Assembly: GCF_000217935.1 (NCBI RefSeq)
Contig: NZ_AFHI01000011.1
Span: 1-64,000 of the forward strand
Reading direction: 5' to 3'
Length of the DNA stretch: 64,000 bases
Source: Rheinheimera sp. A13L
Lineage (GTDB): Bacteria; Pseudomonadota; Gammaproteobacteria; Enterobacterales; Alteromonadaceae
Both the position numbers and the translations under genes were made by a program. Of the stretch, positions 32,695 to 62,896 are shown piece by piece. Under the pieces are notes generated by a model that was not told where the DNA came from, searched no databases, and saw only the letters and a program-made list of their open reading frames with translations. Each line of letters starts with the position of its first letter. Position 1 is the first letter of the stretch.

Positions 32695-33804
32695 ATGCAA
32701 CTGAATACACCAGCAGAAATTATTGAAGATATTCGTCAGGGCAAAATGGTTATTCTGATGGATGACGAAGACCGCGAAAACGAAGGCGATTTAGTGATGG
32801 CGGCTGAATACGTCACGCCTGATGCTGTCAACTTTATGGCCACTCATGGCCGTGGTTTAATTTGTTTAACGCTGACGAAAAAACGCTGTGAACAATTAAA
32901 ATTGCCTCTGATGGTGGATAAAAACTTATCGCCATTTTCTACTGCTTTTACCTTATCCATTGAAGCTGCTGAAGGTGTCACTACAGGTATTTCAGCGGCC
33001 GATCGCGCTCGCACTGTCAAAGCCGCCGTAGCCCGTGATGCTAAGCCGACAGATATTGTGTATCCGGGGCATATTTTTCCTTTGATGGCACAAGACGGCG
33101 GTGTCTTGGTGCGCGCTGGTCACACCGAAGCGGGTTGTGACTTAGCGCGGATGGCGGGTTTAGAGCCAGCTGCAGTGATTGTTGAAATTTTAAATGAAGA
33201 CGGTACCATGGCGCGTCGTCCGGATTTAGAAATTTTTGGTAAAAAACACGGCATTAAAATTGGCACCATTGCCGATTTAATCGAATACCGTAACCTGCAT
33301 GAAACCACGATAGAGCAAGTGGCGAGTTGTCAGTTACCTACTGAATTTGGCGAATTTAATCTGGTCACTTTCCGTGACACTATCGACAATCAAATTCATT
33401 TTGCCTTGGTCAAAGGCGAGATCGAAGCAGAGCAGCCGACTTTAGTGCGGGTGCATCTGCACAATACCTTCAGCGATTTATTGTTATCCGACCGTGGCGC
33501 TAATCGCAGCTTCTCTTTGCACTGTGCAATGAAGCGTATTGCCGACGAAGGTGGCGTGCTGGTGCTTTTAGGCAAAAACGAAAGCAGCGAAGAGCTGGTT
33601 CAGATGGTGCAAAACTTTGAAGCCGAAGATAAAGGTGAAAAAGCCAAAACTGAACTTTGGAAAGGCACTTCACGTAATGTTGGGGTGGGTTCACAAATTC
33701 TGGCCAGTTTAGGCGTGAAAAAAATGCGCCTGTTAAGCGCGCCGAAAAAATACCACGCACTTTCAGGTTTTGGCCTGGAAGTAGTAGATTACGTTTCTGA
33801 GTAA
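32695..33804 (+). CDS. ribBX: 3,4-dihydroxy-2-butanone-4-phosphate synthase with degenerate RibA-like domain (RibBX)
   Basis: The N-terminal half (about 1-200) is a full DHBP synthase: [22 protein letters not shown] and [14 protein letters not shown] motifs. The C-terminal half resembles GTP cyclohydrolase II but lacks its zinc-binding cysteine cluster; the place of the CxxG...CxC motif is taken by [11 protein letters not shown]. This matches the RibBX variant described for many Proteobacteria, in which the RibX part has no cyclohydrolase activity. It is often annotated ribBA. A separate ribA would therefore be required elsewhere in the genome. 369 residues, in operon. Confidence 0.88.
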
Positions 33805-33820
33805 ACATATAAATGCCATG

Positions 33821-33946
33821 TATAGCCAAAGTAATTGATGTTGCAGCTAGGCGACAAGTGCACGAGATCCCGGGAGCATAGTTACCTATGTGACTGGGGC
33901 GAGCAGCGCGGTCAACAACGCTGCAGCTTCAAGTACGAAGGCGATA
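33821..33946 (-). repeat. ERIC-like palindromic element, copy 1
   Basis: A roughly 126-bp imperfect palindrome between ribBX and ribH. Read on the minus strand it matches the copies at 39496 and 48704 over its whole length. Its core GTGACTGGGG/TCCCGGGA-type halves and the central CATAG...CTATG resemble the enterobacterial ERIC core (GTGACTGGGGTGAGC and GCTCCTGGGG). The ends TATAGCC/GGCGATA are near-inverted. It lies inside the riboflavin operon and would be transcribed as a long hairpin. Confidence 0.8.
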
Positions 33947-39400: not shown

Positions 39401-39498
39401 CCTTTGAGTTTGAAGACTCGGGGCATATAGATATGCAGATTGAGAAACTACTGGCTGATGGCCTGGCATGGTTTGAAGTAAAAAGCTACCGCCCTTAG
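36454..39498 (+). CDS. Beta-propeller sensor with degenerate GGDEF domain
   Basis: A 1014-residue membrane sensor. After a signal peptide comes a large periplasmic region of two-component-regulator propeller repeats (for example GYVWVGTLYGLNRFDG, GYMWVGTKAGLSGFNP), a Y_Y_Y domain near 640-740, one membrane helix (about 740-765), a coiled coil and a GGDEF domain from about 830. The signature is AGEQF (887-891), so the fourth position Glu is Gln; the inhibitory site RGAD (878-881) is intact. It may bind c-di-GMP rather than make it. The start is GTG at 36454 or 36463, with no strong ribosome site. The stop codon TAG lies in an ERIC-like repeat. Confidence 0.88.
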   Translation: MICVRFPLLVFLAFFSTASLSQGPSGSIYDFDIKHWNSADGLSSNSVRAVSQDQLGYVWVGTLYGLNRFDGHHFTQFSTKTSRQLASNSINKLLLDQQGYMWVGTKAGLSGFNPQTLKFDRYPILAEVTSIVQVAPDEIWVAAENLFKVKQGKVSRVQSIKESVVQIEMAGDSVLISTTKYLYKLSPEGEIQKIPLPDELQQHPLYDLSWFNDTLHFASESGYFHLDKKQQVVRCDIHGVDNSAIYKLFKDSSGNDWISGYNKLYHRHAGQEWQHISAEELGSSPWFSDIFEDRDHNIWLASFSEGLYRASPGKMRRVVGVGQQDMVVRSVRYSARLNSLLVATQTNVGLLKADQHFVELVDHQSLGQSTVYDFYDRSNQLWLGTDNGLLLYNFDDRKVSRPFKELATASIRVVQPHAETGLWFGGANGLYHYDGETLKAAPFNADLESAFVTVIESQGQDLLVGTTSGLYWYQQEKLNRVGLGTPLFGAYITSVLTLADQQMLVATLDDGLFIKTPQGQWQQYDSSNGLPLDPVISLWYDRDSDYLWASSLKGVFRFRPPAAKDSGKVLHFELVLSPYDRQLGTAPGRCCNGAGHSKVAKWQDQLWFPSLKGLVAVPLQLTMAPDRPLQPLLQDVIGQKSYALLPEQQQLVLETSDRNISIRYSALEFIKANAIEFRYQLSGFDQEWQQVGQRREAIYTNLPPGSYQFVVQARYASQGWTEQQQLKLDLVVPRLFTETIVYKGLWALLVVLALYGLAWLWRRNAVMQQQELSKLVRLRTAELENSNQRLSELNEQLSQLTHKDTLTGLRNRRFLFEQLPKDVEQYQHNRDAMLQQGKCIALLQLDMDNFKSINDLYGNSAGDSVLQQISGLLLRESRGADYVVRFAGEQFVLVLRDVEFATVRDFALQLNQLVAQANFQIPDGRTVSLTCSIGYSCFPLELLGGQLISWEISLQLAEIALSKVKESGRNGCATVGFDPQVDAFEFEDSGHIDMQIEKLLADGLAWFEVKSYRP

Positions 39499-39620
39499 CC
39501 GTCGTCCTTGAAGCCACAGCGTTGTTGCCTGCGCTGCTCGCCCCAGTCACATAGGACAACTATGTTCCTGGGGTCTCGTGCACTTGTCGCCTAGCTGTAA
39601 CATCAATGACTTAGGCTAAT
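39496..39620 (+). repeat. ERIC-like palindromic element, copy 2
   Basis: About 125 bp, same family as 33821 and 48704. The core CTCGCCCCAGTCACATAG and CTATGTTCCTGGGG-type halves are well conserved. The first three bases TAG are the stop codon of the GGDEF-domain gene, so this insertion or its boundary defines the end of that protein. A truncated copy follows directly. Confidence 0.8.
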
Positions 39621-46215: not shown

Positions 46216-47105
46216 AGCAACAGTTGATAAACCGCCTGATGTGCAGGCAGGTCCAATTGATGTAGTTTGGCCTGTCTGAGCAAGAACCCTGTAATGTACT
46301 CCAGTTCAGAGCTGCGGGCCTTAGCAAAATCCTGTTGCATTGACGAATAGTTGTCGGCAGTTTGCTTAATCACCAGCGCTACTCTTTGTTCTATAGCCTC
46401 AAGGCTGAAGTTCTGGTTTGATGCTTTTGCGACCAGCACAAATTCCTCAATCAATACCCGGATAGCTTCGGCATATTTTGTTTCACCAAGTTCGCCATTT
46501 TTACACTGATGTAATGCAGTCAGCGGATTGATCACTGCATTGACTGCCAGTTTTTGCCACAGCGCTGGCCAGATATCATCCAACACTGTGAGCGGACCTA
46601 AAGCGGCTTGCATAGCCTGTTCAATAACTGCTTGTTGTGCAAAAGCCGCCTGATTTAACGCACCTGACACCGACTGTCCCATGCCGCTGTGGATCACTGT
46701 TGCATCATCAGGCTTAAAAGCGCCATGGCTGGTGCTTAAAAACCATAATCCCTGGCTGGGTTTCAACAGCGACAGCACTTGTTCTATGGTACCCATACCA
46801 TTATGGCTCAGCACCAGTTGAGCATCATCAGCCAGTAAGGGCATCAACTGCTGCAGGGCATCTATGACTGCATAAGCTTTGACAGGCAAAAGCACATAGG
46901 AATAAGGCGCTTGAGTTTGATTTGACAGATGGACCCGTTGCGAAGCCCCGGCAGACTGAAAAACAAATTGAAAAGGGCCCTTGATACGACGATGCAGTTG
47001 CACCGGATAACCAGCCCTGTGCAACCGGGCTGCCGAAAGAAGACCAATGGCTCCTTCACCTACGACAGTCCAGAGCGGAAAAACTACTGAGTTCGGTTGC
47101 GCCAT
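46197..47105 (-). CDS. panE: 2-dehydropantoate 2-reductase
   Basis: NADPH-dependent ketopantoate reductase in pantothenate synthesis (302 residues). The Rossmann motif is unusual: GEGAIG in VVGEGAIGLLSA in place of the usual GxGxxG at the start of the protein. The catalytic lysine region LPVKAYAV and LSHNGMG and the C-terminal KLAVNAVINPLTALHQCKNGEL segment fit the family. It overlaps the end of thiI on the other strand by 19 bases, and its start overlaps the VanZ-like gene by 22 bases. Confidence 0.88.
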   Translation of the reverse strand: MAQPNSVVFPLWTVVGEGAIGLLSAARLHRAGYPVQLHRRIKGPFQFVFQSAGASQRVHLSNQTQAPYSYVLLPVKAYAVIDALQQLMPLLADDAQLVLSHNGMGTIEQVLSLLKPSQGLWFLSTSHGAFKPDDATVIHSGMGQSVSGALNQAAFAQQAVIEQAMQAALGPLTVLDDIWPALWQKLAVNAVINPLTALHQCKNGELGETKYAEAIRVLIEEFVLVAKASNQNFSLEAIEQRVALVIKQTADNYSSMQQDFAKARSSELEYITGFLLRQAKLHQLDLPAHQAVYQLLLQKSPR

Positions 47106-47434
47106 TTTTTAACGGCGAAGTAACAAAGATAAAAGGCAGCCATACCTAAAACATCAGCAACCCAGTCCATAAACTCGGCTCTGCGGTAGCTGGTCAGATA
47201 CTGTTGCAGGAATTCAATAGCGACACCATAACCCGCCATAATCACTACGGCTTGCCATAATTTAGGTTTGTAGCTCCATTGCAACAGAGCGGTAAGGCAG
47301 AAAAAAACCAAAAAATGCAGATGCTTGTCGTAGCTGTTTAAATTCAAACCACTACTTTTTACTTCCATCAGAAAGCCATAAGTGGCCCCGGTAAACACCA
47401 GCAAACAAATCGCATGGTAAAGATGACGTTTCAC
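47084..47434 (-). CDS. VanZ-like family membrane protein
   Basis: A 116-residue inner-membrane protein with about four hydrophobic segments. The VanZ-like signature is present (DKHLHFLVFFCLTALLQW and GVAIEFLQQYLTSYRRAEFMDWVADVLG). VanZ-like proteins occur widely outside vancomycin resistance and their role is unknown. It is coupled to panE through a 22-base overlap. No resistance genes surround it, so no antibiotic role is implied. Confidence 0.85.
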   Translation of the reverse strand: MKRHLYHAICLLVFTGATYGFLMEVKSSGLNLNSYDKHLHFLVFFCLTALLQWSYKPKLWQAVVIMAGYGVAIEFLQQYLTSYRRAEFMDWVADVLGMAAFYLCYFAVKKWRNRTQ

Positions 47435-47814
47435 AAGATTCTCTTCTTTAAAAGACCTGGCCAGATTGTATCAGTTTTAAGGTTACAATCTCCAGCCTGA
47501 AACAAAGAGCTCTTAGTGCCTTCATTTGACATAGTGTCAAAAATTGATCAATAAAACGTCTTGAACAAGCAAGATAACCCTAAGCCTGAACTGGCCTGCG
47601 GTGTTTGTTTCCGTGCTGTACAGGCCCGCTATGAATGAACAGACAAGCAAGTCTGTATGACTGCTGAAGGTAGTGTTTCTTTAAAAAAAACTTTATAGCT
47701 CTGTTAAACGTTCATCTAAAAGCATTTGGGGCTTTTGCAGCATGGGGAGACGTTGCCGTTTTTGTGGTTCGGTGTCTTCTCCCCAGGTGCTACTCAGACC
47801 TTCAGAGAACGAAA
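47435..47814. other. 380-base intergenic stretch between yajQ and the VanZ-like gene
   Basis: No convincing gene. It holds the presumed promoter of the VanZ-like-panE pair, a 6-bp hairpin (ACAGAC/GTCTGT, 47640-47657) and a larger inverted structure near 47742-47784, where TGGGGAGA pairs with TCTCCCCA across a loop containing its own small stem. The latter lies downstream of yajQ and may help end its transcript. TTCAGAGA/TCTCTGAA (47801-47826) surrounds the yajQ stop codon. Confidence 0.5.
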
Positions 47815-48297
47815 TTAATCTCTGAAGTTTTTAAACTGGAATGGCTGACCCAGGTCACTTGTTCTGACCAACTGCATCACAGCTTGCAAGTCATCGCGCT
47901 TTTTACCTGTGACACGCAGCTCTTCTCCCTGAATGGCCACCTGTACTTTAATACTACTTTCTTTGATCAGTTTAATGACCTTTTTTGCTATCTCTTTGTC
48001 GATGCCTTGCTTGATGGTGACATGGCGCGTGATGTATTTGCCGTGACGATCTTCTTTTTCAATTTTGAAACTACTGACGTCCAACTGAAGTTTGCTTGCC
48101 TTGGTGGCAAAAATATCAAACAGTTGCATCACCTGCTGATCCGCTTCAGCGGTCAGTTCTATGTGCTCTTTATTCAGCTCAATTTTGGCATCAACACCAC
48201 GAAAATCGAATCGGGTTTCAAGCTCGCGTTTTGCGTTCTCAACTGCGTTTTTTGCTTGGTTCATATCAATTTCAGAAACAATATCAAATGAAGGCAT
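47815..48297 (-). CDS. yajQ: YajQ family nucleotide-binding protein (DUF520)
   Basis: A 160-residue protein with two ferredoxin-like RNA-binding-type domains. Conserved DIVSEID, NAVENAKRELETRFDFRG and SDLGQPFQFKNFRD segments define the family. The Xanthomonas homologue binds c-di-GMP and affects virulence gene expression; E. coli YajQ binds nucleic acids. The function here is inferred only at family level. It is monocistronic, with a Shine-Dalgarno (AGAGAGAG) before its ATG. Confidence 0.93.
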   Translation of the reverse strand: MPSFDIVSEIDMNQAKNAVENAKRELETRFDFRGVDAKIELNKEHIELTAEADQQVMQLFDIFATKASKLQLDVSSFKIEKEDRHGKYITRHVTIKQGIDKEIAKKVIKLIKESSIKVQVAIQGEELRVTGKKRDDLQAVMQLVRTSDLGQPFQFKNFRD

Positions 48298-48509
48298 GGC
48301 TCTCTCTTTTTTCCATTGAAATTTATGGGGCCATTATAAGCTAAAGAATCCAAGGAGCGAACCTCATCTGCATCGAATTACAGGTTGTTTGAAGATTGGG
48401 GGGCAGATTTCAAAGCAGAGCCAAAGCATCCGGATTTCTCTCTCAAATCAAGTGACGTCATAGCTTAGTTTTTTGCACTTATCGACGAAAAGGGACGTCT
48501 GGATTTCTA
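48298..48509. other. Intergenic region before the btuB promoter
   Basis: About 210 bases between the divergent yajQ and btuB units. It must contain the yajQ promoter; I see no gene, repeat copy or recognised RNA in it. Confidence 0.5.
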
Positions 48510-48537
48510 TTGACTTTAATATTGCCGCCGCTACACT
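48510..48537 (+). promoter_or_regulatory. btuB: Sigma-70-like promoter for btuB
   Basis: TTGACT (48510-48515), a 16-base spacer and TACACT (48532-48537). The predicted start, about 48544, falls just before the first paired base of the riboswitch at 48548. Confidence 0.65.
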
Positions 48538-48547
48538 GAGGCCGCGT

Positions 48548-48867
48548 TTTTCAGGTGCCCAGAGGATGTTCTAAACATCGCAGGGTGAAACGGGAATCTG
48601 GTGAAAACCCAGAGCTGCCCCCGCAACGGTAAAACAACAGAGAGCTTTGCTCTGGCTTTAATCAAACCACTGTCTACGGATGGGAAGGGATTAAAGTGGC
48701 TTTTATATCCTTCGTACTTGAAGCTGCAGCTTTGTTGACTGCGTGCTCTCGCCCCAGTCACATAGGTTAACTATGCTCCTGAGGTCTCACGCACTTGTCG
48801 CCTCCCTGCAACTCCAATTGCTTTGGCTATAGATTGCTTGTTGTCAGCCCGGAGACCGGCCTGAAAA
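48548..48867 (+). promoter_or_regulatory. Cobalamin riboswitch of btuB, interrupted by an ERIC-like element
   Basis: The conserved core is visible: CAGGTGCC, a GGGTGAAACGGGAA-type segment, GGTGAAAACC, GCTGCCCCCGCAACGGTAA, then CACTGTCTACGGATGGGAAGG. The conserved 3' strand GTCAGCCCGGAGACC is at 48844-48858. P1 closes with TTTTCAGG (48548-48555) against CCTGAAAA (48860-48867), a perfect 8-bp match. Between the core and the 3' strand lies a 128-bp ERIC-like repeat, so the aptamer is about 320 bases instead of about 200. Downstream, GACGC/GCGTC (48885-48899) forms a hairpin next to the btuB ribosome site, a likely expression platform. Binding of B12 should repress btuB translation. Confidence 0.9.
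48704..48831 (+). repeat. ERIC-like palindromic element, copy 3, inside the btuB riboswitch
   Basis: About 128 bp, in the same orientation as copy 2. It carries the shared CTCGCCCCAGTCACATAG, the central TAACTATG, GCTCCTGAGG and CACTTGTCGCCT segments, and near-inverted ends TATATCC/GGCTATA. It is located in the variable arm of the cobalamin aptamer. Confidence 0.82.
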
Positions 48868-48912
48868 GTTCATTCACTATTCAGGACGCGGTGGGCGTCT
48901 TTGGGAGCTATT

Positions 48913-50730
48913 ATGTTTAAAAAATCTTTGCTGGCGACACTTGTCGCTGGCCTGCCTGCTTTTGTTTTTGCTGCCGATTTTGCCGAAAGCCCGGACGAAC
49001 CACTGGAACATATCAGTGTCTATGCCACTCGCCAGGCCCAGCCTGTGCATCAGATTTTATCCTCAGTCACTGTATTAGACCGCGAGCAAATTGAACAGGC
49101 TCAGGTGTCTGATCTACCTGCTTTGCTGCGTCAGGTGGCCGGTGTGCAAATTAGTCGTTCTGGTGGTAAAGGCCAGACCAATACCGTATTTTTACGGGGT
49201 GGATCTGCAAGCCATACGCTGGTGTTGATTGACGGCGTTCGGGTCGGTTCTGCTACTTTGGGTTATGCCTCTTTGGCTGAATTGTCTTTGCAACAAATTG
49301 AAAAAATTGAGGTGATTAAGGGGCCAAAAGCAGCTCTGTACGGCTCTGACGCTTTAGCTGGTGTGATTGCTATTAGCACCCGTAAAGCCGACAACACCTC
49401 GATACAATTAAAAACTGGTCGTTATCAAAGCCATGAAGCTGACATAGCCACCAGCCAGACTTATGGTGCTTTAACTGTTCGCAGTAATTTAGGCTGGTCT
49501 GGTAGTGATGGTTTTGATGTAAGGCCTGGTACTCAAGCGGACAAAGATAGTTTTGATCAGCGCTACGGTAAATTGGGCGCAGACTACAACACAGCTTATG
49601 GTGTATGGTCTGCGGATCATAATGTACTCCGAAGCCGCGCCCACTATGATTTTGATCCGACATTTGGGCCAGGCGCTGATCAGGTTGAAACAAGAACCAA
49701 TCAAAGTCGTTTGGGCTGGGCTTTAGACAGTGATAAATCAAAGCAGAAGCTAAGTCTGTCTCAGAACCAGACCGAAGATCTAAACTGGGGTGAAGACAGT
49801 CCGCTCAGCCTGTTTGAAACAAAACGGCGGGAGTTTGACTACCAATACAGTCGTCGACTGACTCAAAGCTTAACGGCGTTAACTGGCGTGAATTGGTATC
49901 AGGAAGATGTATCGGGAAGTGATTTAGTGTATGACGTGGATTCACGTATTAATAAAGCCATTTTTGCCGGTGTCAGTTATCAGTCTGGCCATTGGCTGGC
50001 TGATGTCACCGGTCGTCACGATAAACAAAGCCAATATGGTCATTCCAATACGTACGAGTTGGGCTTAGGGTATCAACTGACGAACGAGTGGTTAGTTCGT
50101 GCCAGTCGTAGCAGTGCTTTTAAGGCACCAAGCTTTAACGATTTGTATTACCCCTCAGGTGGTAATGCTGATTTGGTGCCTGAAACTGCAACTTCCGATG
50201 AACTGGGTTTACGCTACCGTAGCAGCGATTTACAAATTGAAAGCTCTGTTTACCAGCAAAGCGTCAACAACCTGATCCAGTGGGCGCCAATGCCTGATGG
50301 CAATTGGGTGCCACAAAATGTCGGTGAAGCAAAAGTCAAAGGGGCTGAGCTGAGCGTCAGTCACAATTGGCAGCAACTGCATCAGCAACTGGCGTACAGC
50401 TACACAGACGCCAAAGACAAAACCACAGGGGCCGCTCTGATTAAACGCTCTAAGCACACAGTGCATTGGCAGGGCGCTTACCAGTGGCAGGATTGGCGGG
50501 TCTTTGTCACTTCTGATTATCAAAGCGATTTCCGCACTGGTGACTTTACAACCCCGAAACTGGGTGGCTATACCCTGTGGGGGGCTGGTGTCAGCTACCA
50601 GTTAAGTCACAGTCTGCAGATCGCAGCCAAAGCGGATAATCTGACCAATAAAGAGTATGTGTACTTACCAGGTTATGCCACTGCAGGTGCTGAATGGTCG
50701 CTGCGTTTAAATTGGACCCCTGATTTTTAA
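48913..50730 (+). CDS. btuB: TonB-dependent vitamin B12 outer-membrane receptor BtuB
   Basis: Outer-membrane cobalamin transporter, 605 residues. A signal peptide (MFKKSLLATLVAGLPAFVFA) is followed by a TonB-box-like stretch (EHISVYAT), a plug domain (VTVLDREQIEQAQVSDLPALLRQVAGVQISRSGG; FLRGGSASHTLVLIDGVRVG) and a 22-strand-type barrel ending in a terminal phenylalanine. Start ATG 48913 follows GGGAG at ideal spacing. It is controlled by the cobalamin riboswitch upstream. It delivers B12 to BtuF and BtuCD, encoded 6-13 kb downstream. Confidence 0.95.
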   Translation: MFKKSLLATLVAGLPAFVFAADFAESPDEPLEHISVYATRQAQPVHQILSSVTVLDREQIEQAQVSDLPALLRQVAGVQISRSGGKGQTNTVFLRGGSASHTLVLIDGVRVGSATLGYASLAELSLQQIEKIEVIKGPKAALYGSDALAGVIAISTRKADNTSIQLKTGRYQSHEADIATSQTYGALTVRSNLGWSGSDGFDVRPGTQADKDSFDQRYGKLGADYNTAYGVWSADHNVLRSRAHYDFDPTFGPGADQVETRTNQSRLGWALDSDKSKQKLSLSQNQTEDLNWGEDSPLSLFETKRREFDYQYSRRLTQSLTALTGVNWYQEDVSGSDLVYDVDSRINKAIFAGVSYQSGHWLADVTGRHDKQSQYGHSNTYELGLGYQLTNEWLVRASRSSAFKAPSFNDLYYPSGGNADLVPETATSDELGLRYRSSDLQIESSVYQQSVNNLIQWAPMPDGNWVPQNVGEAKVKGAELSVSHNWQQLHQQLAYSYTDAKDKTTGAALIKRSKHTVHWQGAYQWQDWRVFVTSDYQSDFRTGDFTTPKLGGYTLWGAGVSYQLSHSLQIAAKADNLTNKEYVYLPGYATAGAEWSLRLNWTPDF

Positions 50731-62599: not shown

Positions 62600-62718
62600 T
62601 GAAAAGCTCCATTATAAAACGGGCAGGGACCAGGAAATAGCAGCTAAAAAACTGCAAAGTTCCGGCACAGTGTAAGCCCGCACTGTGTGTTGCAAAAAGT
62701 TGCAACGCCTGAGGTTTG

Positions 62719-62858
62719 TTAAGGCAGGACATCTGACTTACCGAACCCTGAACAGGTCAGAGTGGTTTACAGTTGCGGGTACAGTACAGGATTTACACCT
62801 GTTTCCCTCTTCGGTTCATTGCATTAGCCAATAGCTTTTGCAGAACACCTTAAACAAA
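62719..62858 (-). promoter_or_regulatory. Cobalamin riboswitch of the btuDC-cob-btuF operon
   Basis: On the minus strand the conserved elements are AAGGTGTT near the 5' end, GAAGAGGGAAACAGGTGTAA, a CCTGTACTGTACCCGCAACTGTAA-type box, and the 3' strand AGTCAGATGTCCTGCC (ending about 62723). P1 pairs TTAAGG (5') with CCTTAA (3'). At about 140 bases it is a compact aptamer, in contrast with the enlarged btuB copy. B12 binding should turn off the operon. Confidence 0.92.
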
Positions 62859-62866
62859 ACCAGCGC

Positions 62867-62896
62867 AGTGTAGCAGAGCAGGGGGCCAAACGTCAG
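62867..62896 (-). promoter_or_regulatory. Sigma-70-like promoter for btuDC-cob-btuF
   Basis: On the minus strand CTGACG (62896-62891), an 18-base spacer and TACACT (62872-62867), with an extended TGC before the -10. The predicted start lies at the first bases of the riboswitch. The same -10 hexamer is used before btuB. Confidence 0.5.

Follow-up and report, generated by a model that had tools for sequence, protein, structure and literature searches.

Can a mobile palindrome lie within the aptamer of a riboswitch and leave the switch in working order? The btuB leader of Rheinheimera sp. A13L raised this question within a stretch of 64,000 nucleotides (the window). An earlier note, made from the letters alone, had proposed that a 128-bp repeat at 48704–48831 split the core of a cobalamin aptamer from its 3' conserved strand. 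By covariance-model search, a cobalamin riboswitch (RF00174) was located at 48536–48878 of the forward strand, with a score of 75.9 bits (E 6.6e-17) and a gathering score of 31.5 bits. The alignment spanned positions 1–189 of the 189 in the model, and the repeat was placed as an insert that separates model positions 151 and 152. The proposed split was thus borne out, and in this search, which the note had suggested for the region, the 3' strand at 48844 lay within the match. The repeat at 48704–48831 is a true insertion of a complete ERIC element in the riboswitch. The insertion was probably tolerated in a dispensable arm, arm C, and the btuB riboswitch most likely still works, a reading to which a probability of about three in four was given. 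The features of the locus are listed in Table 1.

Table 1. Features of the btuB leader and ERIC copies in the window
Feature	Position	Strand	Basis
Sigma-70-like promoter site TTGACT-16-TACACT, 5' of the aptamer	48510–48537	+	Consensus scan, 9/12
Cobalamin riboswitch aptamer enclosing the ERIC	48536–48878	+	RF00174, 75.9 bits
P1 5' strand (partner 48860–48867)	48548–48555	+	Sequence; pairing probability 0.97
L5 GCCCCCGC, complementary to L13 except for one bulged base	48617–48624	+	Sequence
Junction helix (P6 region) 5' strand (partner 48838–48843)	48635–48640	+	MFE; probability 0.51 with and without the ERIC
Hairpin arm A (AGAGC...GCTCT)	48641–48653	+	MFE; probability 0.76
Arm B, 8-bp stem CTTTAATC/GATTAAAG, CCACTG motif	48656–48696	+	MFE; probability 0.95
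Arm C, variable arm, now mostly ERIC	48697–48837	+	Genus alignment and arm folds
ERIC element, 128 bp, TATATCC...GGCTATA	48704–48831	+	Genome copies, E. coli matches, fold
3' conserved core strand and P1 3' strand	48841–48867	+	RF00174 alignment
P13 hairpin with L13 GCGGTGGGC, expression platform	48884–48900	+	6/6 pairs kept in 22/22 genomes
Ribosome binding site GGGAG	48903–48907	+	Sequence
btuB, TonB-dependent B12 receptor	48913–50730	+	TIGR01779, PRK10641
Another ERIC copy	33821–33941	-	Genome search
Another ERIC copy	about 39495–39619	+	Ends read by eye

The pairing of P1, described as perfect in the earlier note, was found between TTTTCAGG and CCTGAAAA, and the hairpin reported beside the btuB ribosome site corresponded to P13. 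L5 pairs with L13 with one bulge; according to passages of PMC10653944, the L5–L13 contact stabilises P13, and the ribosome site is blocked. The gene behind the leader encoded a BtuB-type receptor, with TIGR01779 as the best family (407 bits, short of the family's 599.7-bit cut-off) and PRK10641 at 284 bits. Its relatives in nine close records, including R. soli, R. faecalis, R. tangshanensis, and R. mesophila, shared 82–92% protein identity, and the identity of the gene as btuB was checked for the window and nine named relatives among the 22 genomes of the genus. The promoter scan gave two sites, compared with 0.5 expected. The only site on the forward strand was located upstream of the aptamer, its flanking letters were mostly kept across the 12 aligned relatives, and the consensus scan found no promoter inside the ERIC.

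The repeat has at least 47 matches in its own genome, with 40 of the 128 candidates scored, and the occurrences placed by the earlier note near 33821 and 39496 were both recovered as copies. A further ERIC began, head to tail, directly behind the copy at about 39495–39619; in another genome (G015, contig C1, 693154–693903), six ERICs were arranged head to tail in a row. Matches at E ≤ 1e-5 were present in 3788 of 5426 E. coli genomes. The two ERIC primers, with sequences taken from PMC3696847, agreed with the element at 16 of 22 and 17 of 22 letters; the means of 1000 shuffles were 11.0 and 11.6 and their maxima 18 and 16, so the primer likeness is modest taken alone. The RNA of the element was predicted to form a single long stem-loop of -35.6 kcal/mol (z -2.85; 0/200 shuffles equally stable). 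Four traits of an ERIC were found, namely a size of about 127 bp, dispersal in multiple copies, similarity to enterobacterial ERICs, and one long stem-loop.

ERIC matches were found in 24 of the 60 sampled genomes, including the window's own, which comprised all 22 of the genus and two others (G044 and G057), whereas the 14 other sampled genera of the family gave no match (0/14). G044 and G057 belong to other families of the same order and contained 12 and 2 matches, respectively, a patchy distribution. The element resembles the ERICs of Enterobacteriaceae and Vibrionaceae, as described in parts of PMC10969869 and PMC2267715, in length, long stem-loop, and sequence, but occurs in Rheinheimera, outside both families, and within a riboswitch.

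The leaders of the genus carry the evidence for insertion. An RF00174 match of the btuB-leader type was present in 22/22 genus genomes, and a BLAST search with 60 ERIC copies detected ERIC sequence in three of these leaders only. The window carried the full element, and R. mesophila (G009) and R. tangshanensis (G014) carried an internally deleted ERIC at the same place. The arm segment measured 26–52 nt in 19 of the 22 leaders, 88 and 87 nt in the two short carriers, and 155 nt in the window. The comparison of btuB leaders among relatives proposed in the earlier note therefore revealed no equally long unrelated arm, which indicates an insertion and not an ancestral arm. The three longest of the 87 RF00174 hits in the 60 genomes were those of the three carriers (343, 276, and 275 nt), followed by one of 254 nt.

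The most similar locus overall, that of G012, was empty, with 88.7% identity outside the insert and the best match in 19 of 27 comparison intervals. Over 47100–49800, the most similar relative shifted along the btuB neighbourhood, with G012 best in these 19 intervals, others in seven, and one tie; such a shift is the pattern expected from recombination between species. A TA target duplication is a feature of ERICs. The element ended in TATA on both sides, and the empty site of G012 read CTATATAG; the arm has diverged, and the duplicated bases were uncountable. The length and sequence of arm C varied freely within the genus. Since the arm showed no stable hairpin (-0.4 to 0.0 kcal/mol) in three non-carriers (G002, G008, and G012), it appears facultative, and the ERIC need not have struck a hairpin loop.

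An assembly artefact, or a long ancestral arm in place of an insertion, was disfavoured as very improbable. The genome of the window is in 71 contigs and holds the repeat in many copies, a setting in which misassembly might arise. However, the riboswitch ERIC differed from all other matches in the genome, and the next best copy was only 95% identical, so that it is no assembly echo; two other genomes had a shortened ERIC at the same place, and 19 of the 22 leaders lacked ERIC sequence.

A preference of ERICs for hairpin targets was considered and rejected. The complementarity of the flanks of 60 copies (30 of the 47 matches in the window genome, G000, and 30 of the 54 in G015) was no higher than that of re-paired flanks, with 2.83 versus 3.09 pairs of 8 (p 0.94) and 4.65 versus 4.70 at the best offset (p 0.69). 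Among the 59 other copies with flanks (29 from G000 and 30 from G015), none was located within an Rfam match. One of these 59 abutted a lysine riboswitch (RF00168, 83.7 bits) at its 5' end with a 2-nt overlap (G000 contig C49, about 90714–91013; L087:1501–1800). This riboswitch precedes a gene for lysine-sensitive aspartokinase and is a second riboswitch neighbour of an ERIC in the window genome. Further ERIC-split cobalamin riboswitches in the order were sought with two exact patterns in 394 genomes each, one pattern being limited to one ERIC orientation and the exact anchors matching 32 of 47 loci; only the window was returned from this sample, which contained three genomes of the genus, the two short-ERIC carriers not being among them.

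The three carriers did not form one clade, which was rejected by AU tests on btuB (p 2.7e-5) and rpoB (p 2.5e-4). The group tested was chosen with the alignment already in view, R. mesophila was represented by 47% of the btuB columns, and rpoB came from 15 of the 22 genomes, G012 not included. R. tangshanensis and R. mesophila were sisters on rpoB, with support of 98/98. The arm was therefore invaded at least twice, or once with lateral transfer. One insertion spread between species by recombination could have given all three elements, a possibility that concerns history and not function and that was judged to fall somewhat short of even odds. All three elements shared a T at ERIC position 5, found in 3 of the 60 copies including that of the window; both short elements had the window copy as their best match among the 60; and the left flank GCTTTTA and the A at 48676 were common to the window and R. 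tangshanensis. However, the window copy ends on the right in GGCTATA, which would match an element beginning with TATAGCC and hints at a later change of position 5, and the leader at 48536–48620 was closest to G012 (0.93) and not to R. tangshanensis (0.82). Among the matches listed, short ERICs with a similar deletion occurred elsewhere in the genus, and thus the deletion is not unique to the leader site.

The core was defined as 92 positions, from P1 to the 5' strand of the junction helix without P2, together with 48841–48867. The leader alignment and the count of core changes covered 12 of the 22 genus leaders, the close ones; the other ten were covered by folding, the comparison of arm and P13, and the ERIC BLAST search. 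In the nine non-carriers, 89 of the 92 core positions were invariant, including 26 of the 27 columns at 48841–48867, where the window had no change. At these 89 positions, the window and R. mesophila had no change and R. tangshanensis had three; the leave-one-out count was zero for each non-carrier. The three carrier loci were only about 74–78% alike over most of the neighbourhood. As the window insertion may be young, its 0/89 weighs less than the 0/89 of R. mesophila.

Of the 43 invariant columns in arms A and B, one was changed in the window (arm B, 48676), one in R. tangshanensis, and none in R. mesophila. Of the 41 in the platform and start region, two were changed in the window (48908 and 48912, close to the start codon), one in R. 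tangshanensis, and none in R. mesophila. All six pairs of P13 were kept in 22/22 genomes, with two pairs varying on both sides and one pair on one side at a time, which represented compensatory change across the genus.

These comparisons suggest the following course of events. A complete ERIC, which is a mobile palindrome of the MITE-like, non-autonomous kind, inserted into peripheral arm C, probably a dispensable one; on transcription it would fold into one long hairpin and add a third branch to those above the helix of the P6 region. Binding of cobalamin is most likely retained, as the sequences of P1, of the core strands, of both arms A and B, and of the L5–L13/P13 platform are preserved, and repression of btuB translation, exerted by P13 next to the ribosome site, most likely persists as well. 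The proposal of the earlier note that the element landed in a permissive arm and left the switch functional agreed with the core kept in the carriers; from this conservation we infer that ligand binding and translational control persist and that the insert is nearly neutral. The comparisons speak neither for nor against the changed kinetics or ligand selectivity that the note offered as the other option.

In the MFE structure of the 320-nt RNA, the ERIC was predicted as a self-contained hairpin, the third to branch off above the P6-region helix, in line with the independent hairpin foreseen in the earlier note. The probability of P4 in the window RNA was 0.60 with the ERIC and 0.92 with the ERIC removed, whereas that of the junction helix was 0.51 in both cases. 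The leader of R. tangshanensis was predicted to misfold (P4 0.19, junction helix 0.00). P5 did not exceed 0.01 in any of the 13 sequences, and P3 did not exceed 0.10 except in R. tangshanensis (0.77). The fold test is weak because P3 and P5 were hardly predicted in the non-carriers either; energy folding settles little, and the case for a working switch rests on conservation.

The lower P4 probability could mean that the insertion damages the switch, with the ERIC competing with core helices or parting the two halves, btuB partly or wholly deregulated, and the leader decaying. The predicted misfold and three core changes of R. tangshanensis point in the same direction, as does the RF00174 score of 75.9 bits in the window compared with 84.8–103 in the other 21 genus genomes, a difference that is partly an insert penalty. 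Such damage is unlikely, however, given the absence of change at the 89 core positions in both the window and R. mesophila and the retention of P13 and the ribosome site; furthermore, the change at 48635 in R. tangshanensis leaves a G–U pair possible.

The ERIC may instead add regulation, by slowing aptamer closure or by providing a processing site for RNase E or RNase III in the leader. At ordinary rates of transcription, the 126 extra bases between the aptamer halves would cost a few seconds, and the same arm was occupied in lineages that do not form a clade. According to a section of a review (PMC10969869), ERICs at the 3' ends of Yersinia genes alter transcript levels through an RNase E site. 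Added regulation is nevertheless quite improbable, as two species had only a shortened element and 19 of 22 had none, and no conserved function is visible. A bolder form, in which the ERIC is now a working part, is a slightly longer shot still. The 126 added nucleotides would then make a delayed switch, or cleavage of the ERIC would give a split riboswitch of two pieces joined by P1 and the junction helix, and the repeated occupation of the arm would reflect selection and not tolerance.

The favoured reading, a tolerated insertion in arm C, can be set beside known systems. Riboswitches of the btuB type with an L5–L13 kissing loop share with this leader the full-length RF00174 aptamer, the L5–L13 complementarity, P13 by the ribosome site, and btuB downstream; here, however, a mobile element serves as one arm, and the match measured 343 nt compared with at most 276 nt in the other 86 hits of the 60 genomes. 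Riboswitches can accommodate long variable insertions with a stem-loop fold, as described in sections of Barrick and Breaker 2007 (PMC2258182), and the ERIC shares with those insertions a long, non-conserved stem-loop at a permissive site. It differs in having an identified origin, a mobile repeat for which relatives show empty sites; none of the terms 'transpos', 'mobile', and 'repetitive' appears in the main text of PMC2258182. A pneumococcal BOX repeat between two T-box riboswitches, reported in passages of Croucher 2011 (PMC3049150), is likewise a MITE-like repeat co-transcribed with riboswitches that seemingly still function, but the BOX is situated between two complete aptamers, whereas the ERIC is within one. 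In an extract of a MITE review (PMC10969869), the formation of riboswitches by MITEs was called conceivable. Among the papers listed in searches of the open full-text literature, outside which most subscription journals lie, none was found to describe a MITE within the aptamer of a riboswitch or an ERIC in Rheinheimera. Tolerated riboswitch insertions are thus already known, and what is new is the traceable MITE as the source, with empty sites in relatives.

The origin of the long variable arms of riboswitches is seldom traceable. In this leader the insert can be assigned to a named mobile element, and one origin of the additional long arms found in B12 riboswitches is thereby suggested. The natural series of empty, full (one species), and eroded (two species) sites makes the gain of domains by structured RNAs directly testable, together with the importance of a delay between aptamer halves.

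Two further RNA matches were observed on the reverse strand of the window. A second cobalamin riboswitch (62706–62867, 58.6 bits) preceded a gene for an ABC-transporter ATPase and a run of cobalamin genes, which by family matches included cobS, an adenosyltransferase, and a BtuF-like gene; a second RF00174 match of this kind was present in 12 of the 22 genus genomes. A match to V_AS9 (RF02820), an RNA family named for Vibrio, was located at 32795–32895 with 55.5 bits, compared with a gathering score of 50.
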